Shown piece after piece: positions 954-44,753 of a DNA stretch of 64,000 nt; within the stretch, counting starts at the first letter, position 1; each line of letters starts with the position of its first letter. Below the pieces are notes generated by a model. That model had not been told where the DNA came from. It did no database searches and saw nothing but the letters and a program-made list of their open reading frames with translations. This stretch comes from Blastococcus mobilis (GTDB lineage Bacteria; Actinomycetota; Actinomycetes; Mycobacteriales; Geodermatophilaceae). The position numbers were made by a program, and so were the translations under genes. Location of the stretch: the NCBI RefSeq assembly GCF_900188025.1, contig NZ_FZNO01000018.1:1-64000 (forward strand), in the 5' to 3' direction.

Positions 954-1325
954 ATGGCTACGGACACGCCTGCGGATCTGTGGAATTATCGCGACTCGTA
1001 CCACATCCCTTCGGGCGATCTCGATCTTTCCGGCTTCGAGGTCGTGGGTCGGGACGGCTCCATCGGGACGGTCGACAAGGCGACCAACCGGGTGAGCGCG
1101 AGCTACCTGATCGTGGACACCGGTGACTGGCATGCGGGCCACCAGGTCCTGCTGCCGGCGGCCACGGTCGAGCGCATCGACGGCGACCGCAGGCTGGTCC
1201 ACGTCGACCGCAGCCGCAAGGAGATCGAGGAGGCGCCGGACCTCACGAAGAAGGACATGCGGACGGCGGCCTTCCAGGACCGGCTGCAGGGCTACTACCA
1301 CGGCCTGTACGACACCGGGCTCTGA
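954..1325 (+). CDS. PRC-barrel domain protein
   Basis: A 123-residue cytoplasmic protein. The start ATG sits 6 bases after AGAAGGAG, a good ribosome site; the open frame extends upstream but without a better start. The N-terminal 80 residues have the PRC-barrel pattern: FEVVGRDGSIGTVDKAT, then YLIVDTGDW and a VLLPAATVERID strand. The tail is charged and ends in YYHGLYDTGL, as in actinobacterial PRC-barrel stress proteins. PRC barrels bind RNA-processing or photosynthetic partners in other bacteria, but the role here is unknown. It stands alone between mobile-element scars. Confidence 0.8.
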   Translation: MATDTPADLWNYRDSYHIPSGDLDLSGFEVVGRDGSIGTVDKATNRVSASYLIVDTGDWHAGHQVLLPAATVERIDGDRRLVHVDRSRKEIEEAPDLTKKDMRTAAFQDRLQGYYHGLYDTGL

Positions 1326-1432
1326 GGCCGCGCGAAGGGGGCGCCGGCCTCCTGGCCGCCACCGAGCGGGGTGAGCGTGGTTCCCGCGGGGTGCCCCCGA
1401 CGTGACCGCAGCAGATCCTGAGCGCCTCAACG

Positions 1433-1458
1433 TGTCCCTGAAGCCGCCTTCAGGGACA
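1433..1458 (+). terminator. Perfect 11-bp stem hairpin
   Basis: TGTCCCTGAAG and CTTCAGGGACA pair perfectly around a 4-base loop (CCGC). It lies 108 bases after the PRC-barrel stop codon. There is no T-run, so it is either a hairpin-only terminator, common in high-GC actinomycetes, or a protein-binding dyad of the mobile element. Confidence 0.4.
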
Positions 1459-1875
1459 GGTCCGCCGCCTCGGTCCGCCGTCACCACGCGGGGGACGCCA
1501 ACCGGCAACCCGGCAGGACAGATCCGCGCCCCTCAGTCGCCGTCCCGTAAGGCCCGCCTGGTGAACCTTCCCGCATGGGGAGGACAACCAGGCCACCCTG
1601 CTGGCCTGCATGGCAGCGTCGTCCGCGAGCTGATCGACACCCACGTCACCGTGTCGCAGGAGGGCTGCTGCGTGACGCGAACCGGTACATCGCGGAGCGC
1701 CTCATCAGCCGCCAGTAGCCGGGCGGACGAGATATGCATTGCAACCAACAATCGCCATAAGCGACAAGCGGAATCGGGCCTGCAACGACTGACTGCCCGC
1801 AATTTCTAAGGTCTCTCGCGCATGCCCAAGGCTTCACTAAAGAGCGGCACGCATGCTACCAATAGGGGTAGCTCG

Positions 1876-1894
1876 GGCCCCGCTTTGCGGGGCC
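1876..1894 (+). terminator. Perfect 8-bp stem hairpin before the relaxase gene
   Basis: GGCCCCGC and GCGGGGCC pair around a TTT loop, followed by TACCGTCGTTTCT. It lies about 40 bases before the first plausible relaxase start, in the A+T-richer pocket. It could be a terminator insulating the conjugation gene, or part of an origin of transfer; relaxases of this family often nick next to a hairpin close to their own gene. The sequence alone does not decide. Confidence 0.35.
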
Positions 1895-1933
1895 TACCGT
1901 CGTTTCTAGGGGTGGCGCATTGGTTATTGTTGG

Positions 1934-4900
1934 GTGGCGTTGAAATTGCACGGCGGAATGAAGGTGTACGCCGGCGCGCCGGCGGCTGCCCGGGCGTACC
2001 TGGAGGCGGATCGGGGACGGGCTGATGACTACTACCTGGCCGAAGGGACGGGCGTGGCCCGCCGCTTACGGCCACCGCCGGACGGGTGGAGGAGCTTGCG
2101 CCCTTGACGGGGGAGACCTACGAGAGCTGGGTGGCCGGCCGGGACCCGGACACCGGGCAGCCGCGGGGGCGGCTGCGTACCAATGAGCGGGCTGTGCGGT
2201 TCGTCGAAGTCGTGGTAAACGGCTCGAAGACCTGGTCGCTGGCCGCCGCGGTGCACCCGGACGTCGCCGCCGCCTACGACACCGCCCAGGACCGCGCCGC
2301 GGCCGAGATCATCGGCTGGCTGGCTGGGCATGCCACCACCCGGGTCGGCCCGCGCGGCGGGCAGGTGCAGGTGCCGGCCGAGGTGCTGGAGGCGGTGACG
2401 GTGCGGCACGACACGTCCCGCGCCGGAGATCCGCACCGGCATCTGCACCTGCACCTGCAGATCAACGCCCGGGTGTTCGCCGCGGGAAAGTGGCGCGGGC
2501 TGCACACCGTCGGCGTGCGCGATTTCCTCGCCGCGATCAACGGGATCGGGCATGCCACGGTCGCCTGCGACCCGCAGTTCCGCACCGCGCTGGCCGCCCA
2601 CGGCTACACCCTCGACGCGACTGGAGAAATACTGGAGCTCGCCGCCTACGTCGGTCCGTTCAGCGCCCGGGCGGCGCAGATCGGGCGCAATCTGGACCGC
2701 TACGAACGCGACTGGATGGCCGCCCACCCCGGCGAGTTCCCGGGGCCGGCGCTGCGGCGGGCCTGGGACGCCCGAGCGTGGGCCGACGGCCGCCCGGACA
2801 AGATCACCCCCCGCTCGAGGGCGGACCTCACCGTGCGGTGGCGGGCCGAGCTGGCCGCCCTCGGCTACCGCGACCCCGACCGACCGGTCCAGCTGAGCCC
2901 CACCCCGATCGGCGTCCTGGACCGCGACCACGTCGTGGACCAGATGCTCACCCGGCTGGCCGCCGGCCGCTCCGCGTGGAACGCCGCCGACCTGCGCGGC
3001 GAGGCCGAACGGCTGCTTGCCGCCGCGGGCGTTGTCGCCGGGGCCGCGGTGCGCGGCGAGCTGGCCGAGGACCTCACCGCCCGCGCTCTGGCCCGCTGCC
3101 TTCCGCTGCTGGCGCGCGACGGAGTGCCCGAGCACGTCCGGGCCTGGACCTCTCCGGCGGTGCTTGAGGTCGAGGCCGACCTGGCCGCCCGCTCGCCGCC
3201 CGCGGCGGCCACCACGGTGCAGATGCCGACCTCCGGCCGGACCGGGCGGCCGGCCTGGAGGGGCTGGATGCCGGGCAGGGCGCCACCGCGGCCGCGCTCG
3301 CCGGGAACCGGTCGCTGGTGGTGGTGGAGGGCGCGGCCGGTGCCGGCAAGACCACCACCTTGGGAGCGGCTCGTCGACTGATGGGGGAACAGGGGCGGCG
3401 GCTGGTGGTTGTCACCCCCACCTTGAAGGCGGCCAAGGTCGCCTCCGCCGAGGTCGGTGCCACCGCCGGCTCGGCGGCCTGGCTGGCCTTCCAGCACGGC
3501 TGGCGCTGGACCGACGACGGCGCCTGGACCAGGTTGACCCCCGGTGAGGCCGACCCGGCCACCGGCCAGCTCTATGCCGGACCCGGGGAGAACGCCTGGC
3601 TGCGGCCGGGGGGACATCCTGGTCGTCGACGAGGCCGGGATGCTCGACCAGGACACCGCCCGAGCCCTGCTGGTCGTCGCCGACGAGCACGACGTCCGGG
3701 TGGCGCTGCTCGGTGATCGTCACCAGCTCGCCGCCGTCGGCCGCGGCGGGGTACTGGACCTCGCCGTCCGCCGGGTCGACCCGGCCGCGCACATGACCCT
3801 CGACCGGGTGCACCGCTTCACCCGCACCGACCAGGCCGGGCAGACGGTGCCCGACAGGGAGTACGCCGACCTGACCCTGGCCATGCGCGACGGCGCGGAT
3901 CCCGGCGGGGTGTTCGACGCGCTGGCCGCCCGCGGCCAGGTCCGCCTGCACGCCGACGCCGCTGCGCTGCGGGAGGCACTGGCCGCCCTGGCCGCAGAGC
4001 TTCACCGCCGGGGCGAGCAGACAGCAATCGTGGTGGACACCCGCGAGCAGGCCGCCGAGCTGGGCGCCGCGATCCGGGAGCGGCTGGTCGCCGACGGCCG
4101 CGTCGACGACACGCGGGTCGCGGTCACCGGGACGGGGCAGCGGATCGGCGCCGGGGACCGGATCGCCACCCGCCGCAACGACCGAGCAATGGGCGTGGCC
4201 AACCGCGACATCTGGACCGTCACCGCCGTCAGTCCCTCCGGGGCGCTAACCGTCGCCCCGGCCGACGTCACCCCGACCCGCGCCGTCCCGCCCGGTGTCA
4301 CCCCGGGTGTCACCCCTTCGGGAGTGGGGGAGCGGGTACTGCCCGCCGGCTACGTGACTCCCCACGTCGAGCTGGCCTACGCCAGCACCGCGCACGGGGT
4401 GCAGGGCGACACCGTCACCTCGGCGCACGTGGTGCTCGGCGAGCACACCGGCGCCGCCTCGGCCTACGTCGGCATGACCCGCGGCCGCACTGCGAACACC
4501 GCGCACCTGGTCGCTGCTGACCTGGCCGAGGCGCGGCAGCAGTGGATGGCGGTGTTCGTCCGCGACCGCGCCGACCTGGGACCCGGCCACGCCGCGCACC
4601 TGGCCGCCGCCGAGGCCGCCCGCTATGCCCAGCCCCGCCCGCTCGACCAGGTGCTCGCCGAACTGCACGAAGCGTGGACGGTCGAGCAGCGCTGCCTGGA
4701 CCGGCTGACCGTCCTGCACGCGCAGCACAACACGCTGCGCGCCGTCGCCGCACTCCAGGCCGCCCGGGAGCCCACCGCGGTCGGTGCGCTCGGCCGCGCC
4801 CCGGGCCCCACCGAGCGGCTGGTCGACGTCGACCGGGGCATCGCGGCCGCCGAACACGAGCTGGCCGGCGCGCGGGAACGCATCGCCGCGCTGGTGGCCG

Positions 4901-5097
4901 ACCCGGCCCTGCTCGACCGGCCCGCCGACCGGCTCAGCGGAGAACGCAACGCGTGGCGGGCGGGAGACGCCGACCGCTCCCAGTTCCCGACATTCCCTCG
5001 ACCGGCCGCCGTCGACCCCGGCGTACCGCGGCCGGAGTCCGAGCGCCGCGGCCCCTCCCTCGCCCGGGGCGGCGCGGCCCCCGGCCTCGGGCGATGA
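1934..5097 (+). pseudogene. MobF-type conjugative relaxase-helicase (TraA-like), three frameshifts
   Basis: Put back together, this is a relaxase of roughly 1050 residues. It starts near GTG 1934 (or TTG 1940) with the typical KLHGGMKVYAG and DDYYLAEGTG. The relaxase domain has the histidine cluster HRHLHLHLQIN near 2440-2470. The helicase part has Walker A GAAGAGKTT near 3340, Walker B ILVVDEAGMLD near 3620 and a UvrD-like SAYVGMTRGR near 4460. Three 1-base shifts break it: at 2065-2070, between about 3200 and 3255, and at the six-G run 3608-3613, where RPGGHPG should read RPGDILVV. Enzymes of this family nick oriT and unwind the transferred strand. As read, no full-length product is possible; either a true pseudogene or indel errors. 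Confidence 0.85.
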
Positions 5098-5232
5098 GCC
5101 GCGCCTCAGAGAACTGCAGGCCAACTGGAGAATCCCGGCAGGATCTTGCGGTCGGCTGTCACCAATGGCCTTCATTTGGCGCCTTCTACAGGTGACGGGG
5201 CCCAGCCCATACGACCACCACCGGAGCCGACC

Positions 5233-5445
5233 ATGACCGACCACACCGCCAGCCGCGAACCAGAGCTGCTCACGATCACCGAAGCCGCCGACCTCCTGCG
5301 CGCCCCTGTCGCCACCCTGCGCTACTGGCGCCACCTCGGCACCGGCCCGCGCAGCTTCCGCCTCGGCCGCCGCGTCCTGTACCGCACTGACGACCTCCAC
5401 GCCTGGATCGCGCAACAGCACGCCCAGGCCCTCGACCGTCGATGA
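5233..5445 (+). CDS. Excisionase / AlpA-family DNA-binding protein
   Basis: A 70-residue protein with a MerR-like winged helix: LLTITEAADLLRAPVATLRYWRHLGTG recognition region followed by the beta-hairpin SFRLGRRVLYRTDDLHAWI. This is the HTH_17 pattern of excisionases and recombination directionality factors. ATG 5233 was chosen because the longer open frame from 5146 gains only unrelated residues. The gene sits 84 bases before the integrase in the same direction, as excisionases do in tRNA-integrating elements. It probably bends the attachment site to favour excision. Confidence 0.85.
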   Translation: MTDHTASREPELLTITEAADLLRAPVATLRYWRHLGTGPRSFRLGRRVLYRTDDLHAWIAQQHAQALDRR

Positions 5446-5529
5446 GCGGGCGTCGTCCACAGGCGTGCCGGCCTCCCCAGAGACTCGAGGCGGCATTGAC
5501 CCGGGAGCCGTCGTCGGCACGGTCATCTG

Positions 5530-6627
5530 ATGGCCGGCAGCATCAACGTGGACGTGCTCAGCGACGGCAGTAAGCGGTACCGGTCGCGGTACCGCGATGC
5601 TCGTGGGCGGCAGCACGAGAAGCGATTCATGCGCAAGGTCGACGCGCAACGATGGCTCGACGAGCAGACGTCGGCGATCGTCACGCAGACCTGGACGGCG
5701 CCGGAGCGTGGCCGGGTCACCGTCGATGTCTGGGCAGAGCAGTGGCTCGCCGCACAGACCGGGCTGAAGCCCAGCACGCTCTACCGCTACCGGTCGCTGC
5801 TGCGCGTCCAGATCCTGCCGCGCTGGGGTCAGCACCGGCTGGCCGACGTCACCCATGCCGAGGTCGCCGCGTGGGTGGCCCAACTGGTCGCCGGCGGCCT
5901 CGCGCCGGCGACAGTGCGGCAGGCGCACCGCGTCCTCGCGCTCGTCCTGACCCTCGCCGTCCGTGACGGGCGTATCCCGCGCAACCCGGCATCCGGCGTG
6001 CCACTGCCCAGGGCCCGGCGCGCCGATCCCCGGTTCCTCACCCGCACGGAGGTGGAGCGGCTGGCGAACGCAGCGGGGGAGTACGGCGCCGTCGTCCGCC
6101 TGCTGGCGTACACCGGCCTCCGGTTCGGCGAGATGGCCGCCCTACGGGTCCGCCGGGTCGATTTCCTCCGCAAGCGGCTCACCGTCGCCGAGAGCGCCAC
6201 GGAGGTCGGCGGCGCCGTCGAGTACGGCGCCCCCAAGTCGCACCAGCAGCGCACCGTGCCGCTCCCGAGCGTCCTCGTCGAGCCGATGTCCCGCCGCTGC
6301 CAGGGCAAGGGCCCGGACGACCTCGTCCTGACTTCGCCGGGTGGCGCGGTGCTGCGCTCGGGCAACTTCCGGCGGCGGTTCTTCGACCCGGCGGCCACGG
6401 CCGCCGGGCTGGAGGACCTCAGCCCGCACGACCTCCGGCACACCGCCGCGAGCCTGCTGGTGGCCAGCGGGGCGAACGTCACGGCGGTCCAGCGGATGCT
6501 CGGTCACGCCTCCGCAGCGATGACCCTCGACGTCTACTCCGGGCTCTTCGACGACGACCTCGGCGCCCTCGCTGACCGCATGGATCTCGCCCACGAGGCG
6601 TCAGTCACGAGACGTCACGGTGCGTAG
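5530..6627 (+). CDS. int: Site-specific tyrosine recombinase (integrase)
   Basis: A 365-residue phage-type integrase of normal length. N-terminal AP2-like arm-binding domain at residues 5-60 (SKRYRSRYRDARGRQHEKRF), SAM-like core-binding domain at 65-150, catalytic domain from 165. All active-site residues are visible: Arg198 (TGLRFGE), Lys236 (GAPKSHQQRTV), His300 and Arg303 (SPHDLRHTA), His326 (LGHAS) and the nucleophile Tyr336 (TLDVYSGLF). It ends 80 bases from the 3' end of tRNA-Met and is probably the enzyme that placed the element there. It appears intact, unlike the relaxase upstream. Confidence 0.95.
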   Translation: MAGSINVDVLSDGSKRYRSRYRDARGRQHEKRFMRKVDAQRWLDEQTSAIVTQTWTAPERGRVTVDVWAEQWLAAQTGLKPSTLYRYRSLLRVQILPRWGQHRLADVTHAEVAAWVAQLVAGGLAPATVRQAHRVLALVLTLAVRDGRIPRNPASGVPLPRARRADPRFLTRTEVERLANAAGEYGAVVRLLAYTGLRFGEMAALRVRRVDFLRKRLTVAESATEVGGAVEYGAPKSHQQRTVPLPSVLVEPMSRRCQGKGPDDLVLTSPGGAVLRSGNFRRRFFDPAATAAGLEDLSPHDLRHTAASLLVASGANVTAVQRMLGHASAAMTLDVYSGLFDDDLGALADRMDLAHEASVTRRHGA

Positions 6628-6707
6628 TGTGGGCACCGTGTGGGCACGGGACCCCGTCGTCAAGATCGACGATCAAGCTCCAACCCCCTGACCTGCACGT
6701 ATATCGG
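6628..6707. other. Probable attachment-site junction
   Basis: The 80 bases between the integrase stop and the 3' end of the tRNA hold a near repeat (GTGTGGGCAC and GTGTGGGCACGG, inside a longer GC-rich tract) and no gene. The crossover core is expected in the 3' half of the tRNA itself. A second copy of that core could not be found in the first 2 kb, so the assignment is from context. Confidence 0.35.
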
Positions 6708-6781
6708 TGGGGCGGGTGGGGCTCGAACCCACGACCCAGGGATTATGAGTCCCATGCTCTGACCGGCTGAGCTACCGCCCC
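6708..6781 (-). tRNA. tRNA-Met (anticodon CAT)
   Basis: A full cloverleaf on the minus strand. Acceptor GGGGCGG pairs with CCGCCCC, the T arm is GTGGG-TTCGAGC-CCCAC, and the anticodon loop CTCATAA carries CAT at 6735-6737. CCA is not encoded. The GGACTCATAATCC anticodon arm resembles elongator tRNA-Met; a lysidine-modified tRNA-Ile2 cannot be strictly excluded. Its 3' end faces the integrase, so it is the likely attB of the element. Confidence 0.93.
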
Positions 6782-6974
6782 GACGCGGGACAGCCTGCCA
6801 GACGCCGACCGGCGAGCGGAGCGTCCCGCCTGTCGCGGGGGCCGTCGGCCGGCCCAGGCAGGCTCGAGTGTGGCGTGATGTGCGCTTCGTTATCTTCCCG
6901 TGACATCTGCTTGCGCGGCACGTACCGTCGTCCGCGGCCTTGACGAGCTCCGCCCCTCGAACCGAGGGCATCGG

Positions 6975-7120
6975 ACGGGCCCCGCCGAACCATGCGACCG
7001 GACGGTCGCACGGGCCGGGGAACCACCGCAGTACTGGGGTGAATCACGCCCGCGTTCCTGGACGCGGGCGGGTAGGGCACTTCCGGCCCGAACCCGTCAG
7101 CTAACTCGGTAGGCGGTCGC
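6975..7120 (+). promoter_or_regulatory. c-di-AMP riboswitch (ydaO/yuaA type)
   Basis: The leader has the conserved blocks of the ydaO class in order: CCGCCGAACC, CGGGGAACCACC, CTGGGGTGAATCACGCCC, a GC-rich variable stem, GGGTAGGGCACTTCC, then CCCGAACCCGTCAGCTAAC and GGTAGGCGG. It ends about 20 bases before the start of an exported M23 peptidase. In actinobacteria this riboswitch class commonly controls cell-wall hydrolases and is usually an off-switch when c-di-AMP is high. The remaining bases from 6782 to 6974 show no gene and presumably hold the promoter. Confidence 0.9.
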
Positions 7121-7142
7121 GAGGAACAGGAGAAGCGTCGCC

Positions 7143-8384
7143 TTGGCGACCCCGCACCACACCGCAAGCTCCACAGCTCCAGACCAGCAGCTCCGCCCGC
7201 GCCGCCTCCGGCGAGGCACCCGTCGAGCCATCCTCGTGGTCGGGGCGCTCGCCGCGCTGGTGAGCACCTCCACGGCCCACGCCGCCCCCGGCGACCGCGG
7301 CTCGGTCGCCGAGGCGCGCACCGCCCATGAGGCGGCCGCCGCGGAGGTCGCCGCGATCGGCGCGCGCGTCACCGAGGCCGAGCAGACGCTGCAGCGGATG
7401 ACCATCGAGGCCGAGGCGGCCAGCGGCCAGGCCCTCGCCGCGCAGGCTGCGCTCGCCGCCGCTCAGGCCGAGGCCACGGCGACGGCCGCCAAGCTGGCAG
7501 AGGCGCAGGGCGCCGTCGCCGAGACGCAGGACGACGTCTCGACGATCGGCCGCGAGGCCTACATGGGCAGTGACGAAACCTTCGGCGACGTCGCGATCCT
7601 GCTCGCCGCGGAGAGCCCCACCGAGGTGCTGCAGCAGGCCGCCACCCTCGAGGTGCTCGGCGAGGAGCGCACCCGGGTGCTGAAGGAGATGGAGCGGGTC
7701 GAGGCACTGGAGGCTCGCGCCGACCAGGCCGCCCGCACCGCCGTCGCCGAGCGGGACCAGCTCGCCCGAGCTGCCGCGGAGGCGGAGGCCGCTGCCAACC
7801 AGCAGCTCGCCGCCGCCCAGGGCACCTACGACAGCATCGCTGCCGAGAAGGCGGCGCTCGACGCGCAGCTCCGCGAGGCCGAGATCCACCTGCTGAACCT
7901 GCAGGGGGCCGCGGACGCCGAGGCTGCCTGGAACGCGCAGCAGGCGGCCGCCGCAGCCCCCACCACCCTGACCTCCGCCGGAGGCGCCGTCGCCCCGGCC
8001 ACGGGGCGGGTCACCTCCTGCTACGGCGCCCGCTGGGGCACCCTGCACGCCGGCATCGACATCGCCGCTCCCATCGGCACGCCGGTCTACACGCCCGAGG
8101 ACGGCATCGTCCTCCAGGCCGGCCCCGCCAGCGGGTTCGGACTGGCCGTGGCGGTCCAGCACCGCGACGGCACCATCACGCTCTACGGCCACGTCAACCA
8201 GATGTTCGTGTCCGCCGGCGAGGTCGTCTCGGCCGGTCAGCAGATCGCCGAGGTCGGCAACCGGGGCCAGTCCACCGGACCCCACCTGCACTTCGAGGTG
8301 CACACCGGCGGGCTGTACAAGAACCGCAGCAACCCGGCGCCGTGGCTGGACGCCCGAGGCATCTCCCTCGGTGGGGGCTGCTGA
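7143..8384 (+). CDS. Exported coiled-coil M23 (LytM) peptidoglycan peptidase
   Basis: A 413-residue exported protein. TTG start with AGGAG about 10 bases before it. A Sec signal lies near residues 24-48 (AILVVGALAALVSTSTAHA|AP). Then comes an Ala/Glu-rich coiled coil from about 50 to 265, as in EnvC/NlpD-like or RipA-like proteins. The C-terminal LytM domain has HAGIDIAAPIGTPVY and HLHFEVHTGG, which supply the zinc ligands of active M23 endopeptidases. It probably cuts peptide cross-bridges during growth or division. The c-di-AMP riboswitch in its leader ties its expression to turgor and wall stress. Confidence 0.9.
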   Translation: MATPHHTASSTAPDQQLRPRRLRRGTRRAILVVGALAALVSTSTAHAAPGDRGSVAEARTAHEAAAAEVAAIGARVTEAEQTLQRMTIEAEAASGQALAAQAALAAAQAEATATAAKLAEAQGAVAETQDDVSTIGREAYMGSDETFGDVAILLAAESPTEVLQQAATLEVLGEERTRVLKEMERVEALEARADQAARTAVAERDQLARAAAEAEAAANQQLAAAQGTYDSIAAEKAALDAQLREAEIHLLNLQGAADAEAAWNAQQAAAAAPTTLTSAGGAVAPATGRVTSCYGARWGTLHAGIDIAAPIGTPVYTPEDGIVLQAGPASGFGLAVAVQHRDGTITLYGHVNQMFVSAGEVVSAGQQIAEVGNRGQSTGPHLHFEVHTGGLYKNRSNPAPWLDARGISLGGGC

Positions 8385-8416
8385 GCACTGCCCTGTGCCC
8401 GGGTGAAGATGGGCGA

Positions 8417-9100
8417 ATGCGGACGGCGGTGGACAGCGCGTGGGTCCGTGCCGCCGTGCTGGGCCTGGTCCTCGCCGTCGGAGGAGTCCTCGCCCTCACC
8501 GTCGACCTGCCGACCGTCGACGTCGTCCGCACCTGGGTGGACGGCGCCGGGGGAGCCGCGTGGGCCGGCATGGTCCTGGGGCTCGCGGTCCTGCTGCTGG
8601 CGCCGATCCCGCGGTCGGCGCTCTCCGTCCTGCTGGGCGTCGTCGCGGGGTTCGGCGCCGGGCTCGCGGTCGCGCTGGCCGGTGGTCTGCTCGGCGGCCT
8701 CGCCGCATTCGGGCTCGCGCGGGCGCTGGGTCGGCCCGCCGTCACCCGGCTCGTCGGCCCGCGCCTGGGCCGGGTGGACCGCCTGATGGTCGACCGCGGC
8801 TTCTGGCCGCTGCTTGCGGGCCGGTTGCTCCCCGTCGTCCCGTTCGTCGTCCTCAGCTACGGCGCGGGTCTCACCGCCGTCCGGGTGACCCCGTACGCGC
8901 TCTCCACCGCGCTCGGGCTGGTGCCGAGCACCGTCGTCCAGGTCGGCGTCGGCGCCTCGGCGGGAGCGCTCGCCACCTGGATGACGCCGGCCACCGTCGT
9001 GCCCGTGGCGGCCGCTGTTCTCGTCGCGGCAGGCCTGGGGGCGCTCGCCTGGCGCCGGTGGCGCCGGACCCGGGACGGACAGTCGGTCGCGGTCTCCTAG
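8417..9100 (+). CDS. TVP38/TMEM64 (VTT-domain) membrane protein
   Basis: A 227-residue integral membrane protein with about six hydrophobic segments. The VTT core shows APIPRSALSVLLGVVAGF near residue 65 and GRLLPVVPFVVLSYGAG near 135, the re-entrant-loop pattern of SNARE-associated/DedA-like proteins. Relatives act in lipid scrambling or envelope homeostasis; the substrate here is unknown. ATG 8417 is preferred because the longer frame overlaps the previous gene. Its stop overlaps the stop of the convergent next gene by three bases. Confidence 0.8.
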   Translation: MRTAVDSAWVRAAVLGLVLAVGGVLALTVDLPTVDVVRTWVDGAGGAAWAGMVLGLAVLLLAPIPRSALSVLLGVVAGFGAGLAVALAGGLLGGLAAFGLARALGRPAVTRLVGPRLGRVDRLMVDRGFWPLLAGRLLPVVPFVVLSYGAGLTAVRVTPYALSTALGLVPSTVVQVGVGASAGALATWMTPATVVPVAAAVLVAAGLGALAWRRWRRTRDGQSVAVS

Positions 9101-9972
9101 CCCTTCCGGAAGAGGCGCCCGAGCATCCCCCCGGCTCCGCCGACTGTTCGCGCCGCCAGTTGGAGGATCGGCCCGCCCGGGATACCGGGGACGGCCTGGA
9201 CGATGGGCGCCAGCGCCAGCAGGCCGCCCACGTCGTGGACCTTCAACCTCCGCCGCGCTACCGCGGGCACCGGGTTGATCCGCCCTGACGCGGCCTCCAG
9301 CAGCAGGTCCGCCGGCGCCTCCACCGCGGGACCGTCGACCCGGCCCGGCGGCACCTGGCGCACGGTCCATCCGCCGCCGTCGGAATCGAAGGCCCAACCG
9401 CCCTCCGGCGTCGCGAGAGTGACCCCGCCGGTGATGTCCATCGACGCGGCCAGGCCACCGGTGACGTCGGCCAGGGCCGCCAGACCGGACTGCAGGACGT
9501 CCGCCGACGGGGGAGCGGCACCGCAGGACACCAGGTCCAGCCCGTGGACGGCGAGCTCGTAGGCCTGCCCCAGGACGACGCTGAGCAACGGGATCCGGCC
9601 GACGACGGAAACGGTGAGGGCGGTGTCGAGCTCGGCGGGCTCCTCGGCCAGGTAGCGGGCGGTCGCCTCCCGGTTGCGTCGCAGGGCGACCAGGACCTCG
9701 TCCCGAGTCGCGTCACGGTGCGCGGAGGTCACCCGGGCGTTGACGGCGTCGACGTCGGGGGGCGTGCCGGTGCCACCCGCCCGGGCGGAGGCGATGAGGT
9801 CCGCCATGGCGGTGTGGTCGTCCCAGCAGCCCAGGTGGACGCAGATCTCCTGCGCCCGCCAGCCGCTCAACCGAGACGGTCGGGTCAGGTCCACCGTCTC
9901 CGCGCGGTCGATGAACGCGTCCCACGCGCTCAGCACCCGGTCGGCGACCTCGTCGCGCCCGGCATCCGCCAT
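9097..9972 (-). CDS. Maleylpyruvate isomerase / mycothiol-dependent DinB-like family protein
   Basis: A 291-residue protein beginning with the four-helix DinB-like fold of the mycothiol-dependent maleylpyruvate isomerase family: LSGWRAQEICVHLGCWDDH near residue 35 and GQAYELAVHGLDL near 150, giving the family's histidine metal ligands. The C-terminal half (residues 180-290) is a sterol-carrier-like extension common in actinobacterial members. ATG 9972 is used; the 49 residues upstream in frame look like non-coding translation. Members are often annotated as TIGR03083/TIGR03086 proteins. The real substrate is unknown. Confidence 0.75.
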   Translation of the reverse strand: MADAGRDEVADRVLSAWDAFIDRAETVDLTRPSRLSGWRAQEICVHLGCWDDHTAMADLIASARAGGTGTPPDVDAVNARVTSAHRDATRDEVLVALRRNREATARYLAEEPAELDTALTVSVVGRIPLLSVVLGQAYELAVHGLDLVSCGAAPPSADVLQSGLAALADVTGGLAASMDITGGVTLATPEGGWAFDSDGGGWTVRQVPPGRVDGPAVEAPADLLLEAASGRINPVPAVARRRLKVHDVGGLLALAPIVQAVPGIPGGPILQLAARTVGGAGGMLGRLFRKG

Positions 9973-39448: not shown

Positions 39449-39860
39449 CGACGGACGAGTCGGCTGGGCGGTCGCGTCGGCGGGGGCGACCCCGTCGCCG
39501 AGGAACGTCCGGGCTCCACAGGGCAGGGTGGTCGCCAACAGCGACCCGGGGTGACCCGCGGGACAGTGCCACAGAGAACAGACCGCCAGTGCTCGCACTG
39601 GTAAGGGTGAAACGGCGGTGTAAGAGACCACCGCACACCGGGTGACCGGTGTGGCTCGGTAAACCCCACCCGGAGCAAGGTCAAGAAGGGACGGCGGTCC
39701 GCCGTCGTCCTGCGCAGGCGTTCGAGGGCTGCCCGCCCGATGCCTGCGGGTAGACCGCTCGAGCCTGCCGGCAACGGCAGGCCTAGATGGATGACCGCCC
39801 ATCGGGAGGCCGCAAGGCACCCGTGGACAGAACCCGGCGTACAGGCCGACTCGTCCGTCG
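39449..39860 (+). ncRNA. rnpB: RNase P RNA (bacterial type A)
   Basis: About 412 bases. P1 is formed by CGACGGACGAGTCGG (39449-39463) and CCGACTCGTCCGTCG (39846-39860), a perfect match. Conserved core blocks are present: GAGGAACGTCCGGGCTCC near 39500, GACAGTGCCACAGAGA near 39560, GGTAAGGGTGAAACGG near 39600 and GACAGAACCCGGCGTACAGG near 39826. It is the catalytic part of the enzyme that trims tRNA 5' ends. No gene lies in 39861-40007, which must hold the promoter of the next operon. Confidence 0.96.
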
Positions 39861-40007: not shown

Positions 40008-41915
40008 ATGACGCTCGCCGGAGTCAACGTCCCCTCGGTCCCGACCCCCGATCGTCGGCGCCTGCGGACCTTCGCGTTCGACCCCATGTCCACGCGGCTG
40101 TCCGGTCGCTACCTGGTGCTCGACGTGCCCTTCGAGACGAACCTGCAGCCGGGCCCGTGCGGCTCGCTGCTGCAGGTGGTGGACTTCGACGCCACGCGTG
40201 ACCAGTGGTACGAGCCCGTCGACCTCGACGCGGGCGCCGTGCTGGCGCAGGACGGTCTGCGCCCGTCCGAGAGGGACCCCCGGACGCACCAGCAGGTCGT
40301 CTACGCCGTCGCCATGAGCGTCATCGAGCGCTTCGAGCGCTTCGTCGGGCGGCGCTTCCGGTGGCGCGCCAACCACCAGTTGCGGCTGGTGCCGCATGCC
40401 TTCGAGGGACGCAACGCCTTCTTCGACCCGAGACGTCGTGCGGTCCTGTTCGGCTACTACCGGGCCGACCAGCGTGACCCCGGGCCCAACCTGCCCGGGC
40501 AGGTGATCTTCACCTGCCTGTCCTCGGACATCATCGCCCACGAGATCACGCACGCCATCGTCCATCGGTTGCGGCGCTACTTCGCCCAGGCCACGAACTC
40601 CGACGTCTTCGCGCTGCACGAGGCCTTCGCCGACCTCGTCGCCCTGTTCCAGCACTTCGTCCACCGGGACGTCGTCATCCAGGCGGTGGCTGCGACCTCC
40701 GGTGATCTCCGCAGGAACAGCGGTCTGCTGGACCTCGCCGAGGAGTTCGGCCGCTCGTCCGGCCGCGGCCGGGCGCTGCGCTCGGCCATCGGGACCGAGC
40801 GGACACCTGATCGGTTCCGTAGGGCCACCGAGCCGCACGAGCGGGGCGCCTGTTTCGTCGCCGCCGTCTTCGACGCCTACCTGGACGTCTACCAGGCATC
40901 CATCGCCGACCTGCTCCGCATCGCCACCGGCGGGTCCGGGGTGCTCCCGCCGGGGCGGCTGCACCCCGACCTGGTCAACCGGGTCGCTGACGAGGCCGTC
41001 AAGAACGCCGACCGGCTGCTCGGCATGGTCGTCCGCGCATTCGACTACCTGCCGGTCGTCGACGTGACCTTCGGTGACGTCGTGCGCGCGATCGTCACCG
41101 CCGACCGGGTGCTGTTCCCCGATGACAGCGGAAATCTGCGCGGCACCCTCGTCGAGGCCATGCGCCGGCGCGGCATCTACCCGCCACGCGTGACGTCCCT
41201 GGCCGATGCCGCCCTGACCTGGCCTGCGCCGGAACAACCGCTCAGCCTGGCCGACCCCGCCGCTCCGGTCGACCTGCAGCCCCTCATCCTGTCGGCCACC
41301 AGGGACCTGGACCTCACGGGCGAGGCCGGGCCGGTCATCTCGGCCGCGCCGGCCGCGGGCGGCCGGGCCGGCGAACGGCGGATCGACCAGCAGGTCGGCG
41401 CATGGGCACGGCGGCACGCGCACGCGCTGGGCCTCGAACCGTCCGTGGACATCGACCTGGCCGGGATCCATGTGGCCTACCGGCAGGCGGCGGACCGGCA
41501 GCCCCGGCCCGAGATCGTCGTGCAACTGACGCAGCGTCGTCCGGACCTCGAGGACCCGGGCCTCGACGAGAACAAACGACCGGTGTTCCGCGCGGGCACG
41601 ACGCTCATCGCCGGGGTCGACGGCCGCGTCGAGTTCGTGATCGCCAAGCCGTTCCCCTTCCTGGACGAGGGCGCCGTGGCCGCGCTGCCACCCGGCCATG
41701 CTGCGCACGGCCACCACCGGGCCGGAACCGACCGGCTGGCCGCGCTGCGGCGGTGGCTCGCGGGCCTGGAGGAGGACGACGCGCTCAGCGCCTGGACCCT
41801 CGAGCCGGCGATCGACCGCCTCGACTTCGCGGCCATGCACAACGACGTCGGAGGGGAGGCAGCCGATGTCCGGGTCCACCGTCGCGGTGCGCATGTACAA
41901 CGTCGGGTTCGGTGA
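40008..41915 (+). CDS. Large cytoplasmic HEXXH metallopeptidase of unknown family
   Basis: A 635-residue protein with no signal peptide or membrane helix. HEITH at residues 178-182, in SDIIAHEITHAIVH, gives two zinc-binding His and the catalytic Glu. LHEAFADLVALFQHF puts the third ligand at Glu205 with Asp209 nearby, the gluzincin (thermolysin-like) arrangement. Residues 300-380 are helical, and 440-620 form a separate C-terminal domain with repeated IVVQLTQRRPDLEDPG-like strands. It starts a four-gene operon and overlaps the MBL gene by 50 bases, so the two are coupled. The family role is unknown; a stress- or phage-triggered protease is one idea. Confidence 0.75.
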   Translation: MTLAGVNVPSVPTPDRRRLRTFAFDPMSTRLSGRYLVLDVPFETNLQPGPCGSLLQVVDFDATRDQWYEPVDLDAGAVLAQDGLRPSERDPRTHQQVVYAVAMSVIERFERFVGRRFRWRANHQLRLVPHAFEGRNAFFDPRRRAVLFGYYRADQRDPGPNLPGQVIFTCLSSDIIAHEITHAIVHRLRRYFAQATNSDVFALHEAFADLVALFQHFVHRDVVIQAVAATSGDLRRNSGLLDLAEEFGRSSGRGRALRSAIGTERTPDRFRRATEPHERGACFVAAVFDAYLDVYQASIADLLRIATGGSGVLPPGRLHPDLVNRVADEAVKNADRLLGMVVRAFDYLPVVDVTFGDVVRAIVTADRVLFPDDSGNLRGTLVEAMRRRGIYPPRVTSLADAALTWPAPEQPLSLADPAAPVDLQPLILSATRDLDLTGEAGPVISAAPAAGGRAGERRIDQQVGAWARRHAHALGLEPSVDIDLAGIHVAYRQAADRQPRPEIVVQLTQRRPDLEDPGLDENKRPVFRAGTTLIAGVDGRVEFVIAKPFPFLDEGAVAALPPGHAAHGHHRAGTDRLAALRRWLAGLEEDDALSAWTLEPAIDRLDFAAMHNDVGGEAADVRVHRRGAHVQRRVR

Positions 41916-43128
41916 CGCCTTCCTGATCACGGTCGAGGGGACGGCGAAGCCGTGGCGCATGCTGATCGACTGCGGCGTCCACAGCCAGGGGCAGGCACGG
42001 AAGATCAGCGAGACGGTGGACGCGATCATCAGCGATCTCGCGGCCACCAGCCCCGACGGCACACCGCATCTCGACGTCGTCGCGGCCACACACCACCACG
42101 CCGACCACATCTCCGGTTTCTCGGTGGACGCCTGGCAGGACGTGCGGGTCGACGAGGTGTGGCTGCCGTTCGTGGAGGACGAGACCGACGCCGACGCGGC
42201 CGCGCTCCGCCGCGCTCAGACCGAGACGGCCCGTCGCCTGCTCGGCCTCATCGAGGCACGCACCCTGGGCCTGGACCCGGGGTCGGGGCCGGCGGACGTG
42301 CGGGAGGCCCACTGGTTCGCCCTGAACTCCTTCGGCAACGCCGACGCCACCGACCGGCTGCTCGGTCGGAACGGTCAGCACTTCGCCGGCGCGCACCGGG
42401 TGCGGTACTTCCCGCACCCGGACGAAGCGGAGAACACCGTGGCGGTGGCGGGAGGGGACGCGGTGGTCCACGTGGTGGGCCCGTCGCGGGATCCCGAGCA
42501 GCTCAAGCGCATGGACCCGCCGAAGAGCGCCGGGTGGCTGCGTCTCGACCTCGACGACCCCGAGGGCGTCGAGGACCTGACCGACGTCCCGCTCTTCGAT
42601 CCCGACTACGTGGTCAGCGACCGCGACCGGCTGCCCGAGAGCCTCGTGGACGCCAAGCGCTCGCTGAACCTCGTCAGGGTGACCAACGACGCCGGTCTGC
42701 TCGGAGCCGCGTCGATCCTGGAGCGGGCCGTCAACAACACCAGCCTGTTCATGGTGCTCGACGTCGGCGGCACGCGGCTGATCTTCCCGGGCGACGCGCA
42801 GGAGGGCGCCTGGCAGCACGTCCTGCAGAACCCGGCGAAGACCGACCTGCTCCGGGACGCCGTCTTCTACAAGGTGGGACACCACGGCTCGCACAACGCC
42901 ACCCCGAAGGACTTCGTCGAGAAGGTGTGGCAGGACGGCGGCTACGCCATGCTGCCGTGGGGCCTGGTCAAGCGCTGGCAGGACGCGATCCCCAAGCGCG
43001 AGCTGCTCGCCGCCCTGCACGACCACCAGCACACGGTGATCCGGGCGGATGCCCCGCAGACGCTGCCCGGGGTGGTGACGGTGAACGGCGACCTGTGGAG
43101 CGAAGTCGTGTTCACCGTCAACGGGTGA
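41866..43128 (+). CDS. Metallo-beta-lactamase-fold hydrolase (ComEC/Rec2-like MBL domain)
   Basis: A 420-residue stand-alone MBL protein. It begins RMYNVGFGDAFLITVEG, like ComEC C-terminal domains. The metal motif THHHADH is at residues 75-81; LDVGGTRLIFPGDAQEG near 305 gives the bridging Asp, and KVGHHGSHNAT near 343 the last His. ComEC-like MBL domains are nucleases or phosphodiesterases. No membrane part is present. ATG 41866 has GAGGGGAGG before it and overlaps the protease gene by 50 bases. Together with the protease it forms the core of the unexplained operon. Confidence 0.85.
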   Translation: MSGSTVAVRMYNVGFGDAFLITVEGTAKPWRMLIDCGVHSQGQARKISETVDAIISDLAATSPDGTPHLDVVAATHHHADHISGFSVDAWQDVRVDEVWLPFVEDETDADAAALRRAQTETARRLLGLIEARTLGLDPGSGPADVREAHWFALNSFGNADATDRLLGRNGQHFAGAHRVRYFPHPDEAENTVAVAGGDAVVHVVGPSRDPEQLKRMDPPKSAGWLRLDLDDPEGVEDLTDVPLFDPDYVVSDRDRLPESLVDAKRSLNLVRVTNDAGLLGAASILERAVNNTSLFMVLDVGGTRLIFPGDAQEGAWQHVLQNPAKTDLLRDAVFYKVGHHGSHNATPKDFVEKVWQDGGYAMLPWGLVKRWQDAIPKRELLAALHDHQHTVIRADAPQTLPGVVTVNGDLWSEVVFTVNG

Positions 43129-43195
43129 GCGCCGCTCGGGGTGGAACAACCCGGGGGGCGCTCGCCCCGCGGGCCGTCGACGTCGAGGAGAGCGC

Positions 43196-43540
43196 GTGGC
43201 CGAGACCTGGCCGGACCGCAGCGTGGAGTACGAGTACCCGGCATCCACGGAGCCCAACACGAGGAGATGGCAGGCGGGTATCGACGCCGCCCTCGCCGAC
43301 GGGACGCTGCAGCTGTCGAAGAAGGGGCGGGGGCTGTACGACCTGCACGGCGCCTGTCCGCGCTGCGGCCACGACATGAGCGTGGAGATCGAGTTCGACG
43401 TCGGCATGGGCATCGACGTCCAGCCGTCCGGTCGCTACAACGTCGACTGCAACTGCGACGGGTCACACGACGACGAGGACGACGAGCGCGACGGCTGCGG
43501 CTGGGGCGGTCCGCTGATCGTCACGATCGCGAAGCCGTAG
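43196..43540 (+). CDS. Small Cys-rich zinc-binding-like protein
   Basis: A 114-residue protein. CPRCGH (Cys54, Cys57, His59) pairs with Cys85, Cys87 and Cys101 in VDCNCDGSHDDED and DGCGWGG, enough for one zinc site. The stretch between the last cysteines is strongly acidic (SHDDEDDERDG). No known family was recognised. GTG 43196 has GAGGAGAGC before it and lies 67 bases after the MBL gene. An adaptor or sensor role for the operon is inference. Confidence 0.65.
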   Translation: MAETWPDRSVEYEYPASTEPNTRRWQAGIDAALADGTLQLSKKGRGLYDLHGACPRCGHDMSVEIEFDVGMGIDVQPSGRYNVDCNCDGSHDDEDDERDGCGWGGPLIVTIAKP

Positions 43541-43552
43541 GGGTGCGGCGTC

Positions 43553-44140
43553 ATGGCGAAGGAGGACGACGACTACTGGAAGGGCGAGGTCACCAAGGCC
43601 CGCCGCACGCAGCTCGACGTCGTACGGAAGTCGGCGACGGGGTGGTCCGCTCTCTTCGCGGCCGTCCTCGGCGTCTTCGGGTCGGTCACGTTCGTGGGCG
43701 GCCTGACCGGGGTCGACGAGCTGCCCGAGTCACTTGCCGGGGACGTCCGGGTGGCGATCGTCGTGGCCGCGGGCCTGGCGTTGCTCGCCACCGTGCTGGC
43801 CGGTCTGGCGGCGAACTCCCTCCCCTCCGTGACGAGCGATCTCACGTTCCAGAAGCTGCGCGACGACACCAAGAACAAGGCGACGAGCGCGCGAAGGCTG
43901 CTCAGGTGGGCGCTGCTGTGCGCGGCCGGCGCCGCTGTCATCGTCACCGTGGGGTCGGCCGTCGTGGTGCTCTCGGAGAAGGAGCAGGACGCGGTGACGG
44001 CGCCGTCCGCGGTCGTGGTCGTCGACGGCAAGGCGGTCTGCGGCCCGCTGACGGAGGACGCGGACGGTCAGCTGTCGGTCGACGGGATCGCTCTCGGCGA
44101 CGCCGGGGCCTCGTTCACCGTGGTGAGCTCCTGCCCTTAG
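43553..44140 (+). CDS. Three-helix membrane protein of the protease-MBL operon
   Basis: A 195-residue protein with a charged cytoplasmic N-terminus (KEDDDYWKGEVTKARRTQ), helices near residues 30-52, 65-88 and 117-140, and a C-terminal tail of about 55 residues with two cysteines (AVCGPL and VVSSCP) that may form a disulfide outside. No family recognised. It begins 12 bases after the zinc-protein stop, so it is certainly in the same operon. A membrane anchor or pore would fit a stress or abortive-infection system, but this is inference. Confidence 0.6.
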   Translation: MAKEDDDYWKGEVTKARRTQLDVVRKSATGWSALFAAVLGVFGSVTFVGGLTGVDELPESLAGDVRVAIVVAAGLALLATVLAGLAANSLPSVTSDLTFQKLRDDTKNKATSARRLLRWALLCAAGAAVIVTVGSAVVVLSEKEQDAVTAPSAVVVVDGKAVCGPLTEDADGQLSVDGIALGDAGASFTVVSSCP

Positions 44141-44207: not shown

Positions 44208-44753
44208 GTGATCGCGCGTCGGCCGCGGCGGGTCCTCGTGCTCGGCGGCGCACGCTCCGGGAAGTCGTCCTACGCCGAGCAGCTGCTCGGTCGCGAGCGC
44301 TCCGTCGAGTACGTCGCCTGTGGCTCCACCCCGGGTCCGGACGACGCCGAGTGGGCCCGACGGGTCGCCCTGCACCGGGTCCGGCGCCCCGCGTCCTGGA
44401 GCACCGTCGAGACGATCGACCTGCCGAGCGTCCTGGGCAGCACCGGACCGCCCGTCCTGATCGACTGCCTGACCACCTGGCTGTCCCGCGTCATGGACGA
44501 CTGCGGGGTCTGGACCGAGGAACCCGGCGCGGACGAGCGCCTGGCCGCCGCGGTCGACGAGGCCGTCGACGCCTGGACCCGCTGCCGTCGCCGGGTGGTG
44601 GCGGTGAGCAACGAGGTCGGGTCGGGCATCGTCCCGGCCACGCCGTCCGGCCGGCGCTTCCGCGACGAGCTCGGCATCCTCAACGCCCGCATCGCCGCCG
44701 CGTCCGACCGGGTGTGGCTCGTGACCGCCGGGCTGCCCCAGCGGCTGCGCTGA
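44208..44753 (+). CDS. cobU: Adenosylcobinamide kinase / adenosylcobinamide-phosphate guanylyltransferase
   Basis: A 181-residue bifunctional enzyme. The P-loop GGARSGKSSYAE is at residues 13-24, followed by VEYVACGSTPG, the guanylylated-His region RVALHRVRRPASW and LIDCLTTWLSR; VVAVSNEVGSGIVP and GILNARIAA are typical of CobU/CobP. It phosphorylates adenosylcobinamide and links GMP for the nucleotide loop of B12. No other cobalamin gene is near except the CobC-like half of the RNase HI fusion. GTG 44208. Confidence 0.92.
   Translation: MIARRPRRVLVLGGARSGKSSYAEQLLGRERSVEYVACGSTPGPDDAEWARRVALHRVRRPASWSTVETIDLPSVLGSTGPPVLIDCLTTWLSRVMDDCGVWTEEPGADERLAAAVDEAVDAWTRCRRRVVAVSNEVGSGIVPATPSGRRFRDELGILNARIAAASDRVWLVTAGLPQRLR

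Follow-up and report, generated by a model that had tools for sequence, protein, structure and literature searches.

The subject of this report is a block of four genes, A to D, in a window of 64,000 nucleotides of Blastococcus mobilis (positions 1 to 64,000 of contig NZ_FZNO01000018.1), and in particular its first two genes, which encode a metallopeptidase (A) and a ComEC-like protein of the metallo-beta-lactamase (MBL) fold (B). A preliminary description of the window had placed four genes on one strand between rnpB and a cobU-like gene. This arrangement was confirmed by the open reading frames, by a home-made codon-usage gene caller that accepted all four genes and by the Rfam match of rnpB (Table 1). 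The gene at the right-hand border is presumably cobU-like, a name that we take from its P-loop motif. B and C are separated by 67 bases and C and D by 12 bases, whereas A and B overlap by 50 bases, from which a coupling of the two had been proposed. The overlap is real but a local quirk of the window. In the relatives L004, L006, L035 and L036 (L-numbers denote the loci compared, 130 in all, with flanks of 6-10 kb beyond A-B and less on short contigs) it amounts to 4 bases, and the A of the window extends beyond the stop position of these relatives. C is rich in cysteines and D has three hydrophobic stretches (by eye), as had been described.

Table 1. Features of the A-D block and its borders in the window.
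Feature	Position	Strand	Remark
rnpB (RNase P RNA, class A)	39456-39857	+	Rfam RF00010, 282.9 bits
Gene A, thermolysin/fungalysin-like metallopeptidase of 635 amino acids with a further C-terminal domain	40008-41915	+	
A, HEITH zinc motif, residues 178-182	40539-40553	+	H178, E179 and H182 invariant in 33/33 aligned A proteins
A, residues 205-209 (E205, presumed third zinc ligand; D209)	40620-40634	+	E205 and D209 invariant in 33/33
A, H277	40836-40838	+	Invariant in 33/33
A, residues 454-591, C-terminal alpha/beta region outside the peptidase fold	41367-41780	+	Predicted model, mostly confident
Gene B, ComEC-like MBL-fold protein of 420 amino acids	41866-43128	+	
B, HHHADH metal motif, residues 76-81	42091-42108	+	With D310 (42793-42795) and H339/H340 (42880-42885)
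B, residues 86-289, stretch longer than in ComEC, candidate gate	42121-42732	+	Length comparison
B, residues 217-270, low confidence, possibly disordered	42514-42675	+	pLDDT (predicted local distance difference test) <50 at 217-253 and 255-270
Gene C, Cys-rich protein of 114 amino acids, probably zinc-binding	43196-43540	+	
Gene D, membrane protein of 195 amino acids	43553-44140	+	
cobU-like gene, right-hand border of the block	44208-44753	+	

The HEITH motif that had been noted for A is present and its catalytic residues are invariant. The predicted fold of A is that of a thermolysin-like gluzincin (M4/M36) with an HExxH...E zinc site and a second catalytic histidine. We take the E-x3-D spacing of E205 and D209 to be the thermolysin pattern, and H277 is presumably the counterpart of thermolysin His231, an assignment made without a residue-by-residue superposition. 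Most of the fold matches stop near residue 402 and barely reach the region 454-591. No signal peptide was seen in A by eye, and A is probably cytoplasmic. At E<=1 the A of the window had no Pfam match, including the M4 models PF01447 and PF02868, no PADLOC model matched it and a PDB sequence search returned nothing. When the PDB was searched with a profile of A, only weak rows were obtained, one of them a neutral protease (E 0.89). In five loci (L094, L105, L109, L112, L113) an S8 subtilase is part of the same chain as A, and the A of L006 has an EVE-like domain (E 0.0085, under the Pfam gathering score). A sub-threshold Pfam match of the A relative in L096 to CBP_BcsR (E 0.0017) was disregarded as short.

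B had been called a stand-alone ComEC-like MBL protein, and ComEC-like MBL matches were indeed found. The best PADLOC and NCBIfam matches were LmuA (the best in PADLOC, 8.9e-16), Avs1a, 6A-MBL, ComEC and a reverse transcriptase (RT)-associated MBL, and ComEC was the top PDB sequence match. The scores were below the cut-offs for Avs1a (42.4 bits, cut-off 420) and for the 6A-MBL model NF058524 of NCBIfam (41.1 bits, cut-off 220). The residues H76, H78, D80, H81, D310, K336, H339 and H340 are invariant in 33 of 33 B proteins. Between the HxHxDH motif and the NN strand, B has about 136 residues more than ComEC: F85-N290 spans 205 residues in the window and 180-264 in the 33 B proteins (median 216), compared with about 69 in ComEC 9ic4. 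In the stretch 86-289 P206 alone is fully conserved (33/33), and G205 is found in 29 of 33 proteins. The low pLDDT in part of this stretch is weak evidence of disorder, given an alignment of seven rows.

The occurrence of A and B was then compared across genomes, plasmids and phages. A plasmid collection searched with A gave 38 records, of which 28 were examined; the other ten are mostly from the same species or near-duplicates, and one is a weak match. Phage records gave two matches for A. One of these, L121, was added to the 28 plasmid records to give a set of 29 loci, and in 27 of them a B-type MBL frame lies directly downstream of A on the same strand. A and B of L106 are separated by what looks, by eye, like a transposase gene, and in L114 A is split and B was not found. 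Eight distinct genomic loci have an A of the window's kind: the window, L035 (from the same strain as L004), L005, L006, L036, L037, L044 and L007. B was present in seven of the eight. L004 and L035 were counted as paired from the gene calls with their 4-base overlap, since the script had missed them because of long stop-to-stop frames.

The two proteins have also diverged together. The pairwise distances of A and of B were correlated with an r of 0.889 (n=33), and the maximum of 2000 permutations was 0.258, with host ancestry left uncorrected. This set excludes L004 as a duplicate, L007 for its lack of B, and L110, L113 and L114, in which frames are split or missing. The hosts of the pair belong to the Actinomycetota, Pseudomonadota (alpha and beta), Bacteroidota, Deinococcota and Planctomycetota, and a cyanobacterial plasmid has a split A without B. 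In the window's family, A had a match at E 0.001 in 12 of 112 genomes and near full length in four; B matched in seven of 112 and was strong over its length only in those four. Among 394 genomes drawn from the class, eight had an A match at E 0.001, and only the window's own was near full length. A scan of genome contigs with short patterns, which reaches close relatives only, gave four loci. Viral contigs had 62 stretches fitting the short pattern for A and 12 for B, and none of them encodes a relative. L121 itself (MT836994.1, deposited as a bacteriophage from stool) carries the A-B pair and otherwise looks, by eye, like a bacterial chromosome.

More distant relatives of A were seen in other surroundings. 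In L015 (contig C54 of the window's genome), L018, L019, L041 and L042, relatives of the A peptidase domain stand without an MBL gene near tyrosinase-like and small-membrane-protein genes (by eye), and the peptidase family is put to a different use there. In L016 and L017 the relatives are flanked by caspase-domain genes, both of them recognised by Pfam in L016 and by eye in L017.

The neighbours of the pair were tallied as a description. Thirteen of the 29 loci have phospholipase-type genes no more than about three genes away from the pair, namely patatin in L095, L096, L097, L098, L099, L102, L103 and L106, a PLD-like gene in L101 and DUF2235/Tle1-like genes in L107, L108, L109 and L116. They were assigned by annotation, by Pfam for L096, L101, L107 and L116 and by motif for L099 and L106. 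Among the eight genomic loci, patatin stands beside A in four, directly upstream in L005, L036 and L037 and divergent in L035. An S8 subtilase gene lies upstream of A in L007, and in two Hymenobacter plasmids (L100 and L104) A is immediately preceded by a gene for an LmuB-like SMC ATPase. Genes of defence type adjoin several loci: Hachiman HamA and HamB in L096 and L118, CBASS cyclases in L096 and L098, a PtuA-like ATPase in L098 and a SIR2/ThsA-like gene in L109. A caspase gene is located near L115, and cell-wall-hydrolase annotations near L112, L113 and L120. In L035 the divergent patatin, a second MBL gene, genes for two CHAT-domain proteins and one for a protein of 1179 amino acids (Pfam) form a block on the minus strand (1252-9741) that adjoins A-B and looks like another conflict system.

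The protease-gated MBL effector as a kind has been in print since 2025. The main text of Tuck et al. (2025, PMC12799240) describes ComEC-like MBL pro-nucleases of Hachiman, AVAST and Canu, whose insertions apparently block the active site and which are activated by a partner protease. Their cut sites lie in the part after HxHxDH in which B has its extra residues, with Ile as the cut-site residue of the trypsin-like protease and Gly as that of the caspase. The trypsin-like cases given there are HamM with protease-HamA (Hachiman), Avs1a/Avs1b (AVAST) and variants of Lamassu and DRT. A-B shares with these trypsin-gated cases the ComEC-like MBL protein with extra residues after HxHxDH, the neighbouring protease gene and the matched divergence, and some A-B loci lie beside Hachiman, CBASS or LmuB-like genes. 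In contrast, A is thermolysin-like, neither trypsin-like nor a caspase, and five loci have it in one chain with S8; it is encoded upstream of the MBL gene, whereas the published trypsin-like protease is encoded downstream and fused to HamA, Avs or Lmu proteins. No Ile cut-site conservation was seen in B, and its activation by A is our proposal. Canu (CanABC) resembles A-B in that the protease is encoded upstream of the MBL nuclease and that the extra genes vary, but the Canu protease has a caspase fold and A is a metallopeptidase.

Similar comparisons can be made with single components. The likeness to Lamassu lies in LmuA as the best PADLOC match of B and in the LmuB-like ATPases upstream of A in the two Hymenobacter plasmids; unlike Lamassu, the window has no LmuB among A-D, and its A lacks a PADLOC match. 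AVAST type 1 differs in that B is under the Avs1a cut-off and no STAND ATPase is found among A-D, and the 6A-MBL antiphage system differs in that B is under the NF058524 cut-off. With M4 thermolysin and M36 fungalysin A shares its predicted fold and the pattern of catalytic residues, but it has no Pfam match, no signal peptide (by eye), a further C-terminal region and an MBL partner. The words metalloprotease, metallopeptidase, zincin, thermolysin, patatin and subtilisin are absent from the main text of PMC12799240. Since that text also mentions proteases of 'other diverse families' that accompany additional nuclease homologues (fig. S2), the A-B clade may already sit in its tree. The literature searched by title and abstract start held no metallopeptidase-MBL pair in defence, and the supplement of PMC12799240 may show one.

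The co-conservation of A and B, their sporadic distribution, the plasmids, the defence-type neighbours and the published protease/MBL mechanism support a role of the pair in conflict. On balance, and with moderate confidence, we propose that A-B is a mobile two-enzyme conflict module in which A would free a DNase-like B by cutting its insertion upon infection. Because its anatomy is that of the protease-gated pro-nucleases in the main text of PMC12799240, with a metallopeptidase where they have a trypsin or a caspase, activation of B by the cutting of its insertion, followed by the destruction of DNA by B, seems the most likely course. B would be a hydrolase of the ComEC-like MBL type, with DNA as its most likely substrate, that is kept inactive by the long insertion at its active-site face. 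An infection signal, presumably from a phage, would lead the cytoplasmic thermolysin-like endopeptidase A to cut this insertion, and the freed B would degrade DNA so that the cell is killed or arrested. Where a third partner exists, the signal may come from the phospholipase gene, from the subtilase that is part of the A chain or encoded next to it or from the LmuB-like SMC ATPase; in loci that lack such a partner, like that of the window, it may come from the C-terminal domain of A itself.

Several observations weigh against this proposal. L007 has A without B, and B is absent from all 13 genomic loci with more distant relatives of A (L015-L021 and L038-L043). In the plasmid loci L117-L120, however, A is equally distant and yet B is present, so the distance of A alone does not decide whether B is there. 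The L117 pair is located among transport genes, and the block in the window has no recognised sensor or third partner. The neighbour tally has no control set and is not an enrichment statistic, and PADLOC had no match for the multiubiquitin-type protein of L107, the patatin of L096 or the S8-A fusion of L094. The five predicted models of B are shaky, with a mean pLDDT of 47-71, and in the fold comparison the best match, ComEC (Z 20.2), was followed within 1 Z by the phosphorylcholine esterase Pce (Z 19.4). No conserved Ile or Gly resembling the published cut sites was evident in the insertion stretch of the 33 B proteins; a metallopeptidase may favour other residues.

The tie with Pce would suit a reading in which the partnership of A and B holds but B acts as a phosphodiesterase on lipid, teichoic acid or nucleotide, so that the module, together with phospholipases and cell-wall hydrolases, would be a lytic cassette directed against the own cell or competitors. 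The phospholipase-type genes near 13 of the 29 loci, the patatin beside A in four of the eight genomic loci and the cell-wall-hydrolase annotations also fit it. The closest PADLOC, NCBIfam and PDB matches of B, from LmuA to ComEC, argue against a phosphodiesterase, and no secretion gene was noticed next to the pair, although no search was aimed at one. We regard the lytic cassette as unlikely. A could instead be the executioner itself and cut cellular or phage proteins without activating B, which would then be a separate effector or regulator. The full catalytic set of A, the second protease in the same chain in five loci and the lone A of L007 are compatible with this, but the tight pairing, the matched divergence and the extra residues of B at the gate position given in the main text of PMC12799240 make it quite unlikely.

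The preliminary description had taken all four genes for one system, in which C as a zinc protein might sense and D might anchor or form a pore. Their common strand, the short gaps of 67 and 12 bases and the common position between rnpB and cobU speak for it, but the distribution of C and D does not. In the stretch L130 of genome G621, a C homologue (46% identical) is directly followed by a D homologue (44% identical), and neither A nor B is present there. Of 298 genomes drawn from the order, C matched four (the window's own, G621 at 6e-29 and two weak) and D seven (the window's own, G621 at 1.7e-42 and five weak). In the window's family C was found in one of 112 genomes and D in three, two of them weak and partial. 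Plasmids gave no match at E 0.01 for C and none for D. Among the 130 compared loci, every match of C and D falls in the window's genome or in G621, apart from two weak C matches, and no A-B locus besides the window's shows C or D within its stretch. The single four-gene system was therefore rejected and has very little probability; C-D looks like a separate pair that came to stand beside A-B by chance. Of the earlier idea of a protease plus MBL conflict system, the A-B core is thus co-conserved, recurs and has some defence neighbours, whereas the set including the zinc and membrane proteins fails. It might finally be asked whether A and B are an ordinary housekeeping pair that is adjacent by chance, as ComEC-like proteins and M4-like peptidases are common. 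This is contradicted by the distribution, with a near full-length A in four of 112 family genomes, A on 38 plasmid records and the pairing across phyla, and the searches made turned up no homologue whose housekeeping role is known. We consider it highly improbable.

The stretch downstream of rnpB was examined in 12 loci of the same genus. In five of them (L065, L066, L068, L073, L075) a direct repeat of the rnpB 3' end occurs 1.5-21 kb downstream, with local scores of 29-33 compared with 11.5-14 in the other seven and a shuffled maximum of 17. These repeats make the end of rnpB look like a site at which islands recurrently insert in the genus. L066 has integrase- and excisionase-like genes between rnpB and cobU and, in the same stretch, a relaxase-like gene and caspase-like cargo (by eye). 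No repeat of the rnpB end was found between rnpB and cobU in the window (best local score 13.5, shuffled maximum 17.0); integration of its block at rnpB is plausible. The cobU-like gene had a blastn match in five of the 12 rnpB stretches, and neither rnpB nor cobU was detected by blastn in the A-B stretches L004, L035, L036 and L037. What looks like one tidy operon at a site of island insertion can be several unrelated modules stacked together.

Elsewhere in the window, relaxase-, excisionase- and integrase-like genes (by eye) at 2086-6627, beside a tRNA-Met gene (6706-6781), seem to mark where a further integrative element ends. A c-di-AMP (cyclic di-AMP) riboswitch (Rfam RF00379, 62.6 bits) is located at 6973-7130, upstream of a called gene at 7236-8384.

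The gated module leads to the direct prediction that A cuts the insertion of B. More broadly, and tentatively, a third protease class, the cytoplasmic thermolysin-like peptidases, may have been recruited to switch on ComEC-like pro-nucleases. A-B would then be a cross-phylum, often plasmid-borne immune module with protease cascades and with interchangeable triggers and co-effectors (phospholipases, a subtilase, an LmuB-like SMC ATPase and an EVE-like domain). If this is true, evolution would have arrived at the proteolytic release of MBL nucleases with three or more unrelated protease folds, and the unnamed peptidase family of A would be a marker for candidate defence loci that are missed by the copies of Pfam, NCBIfam and PADLOC searched.

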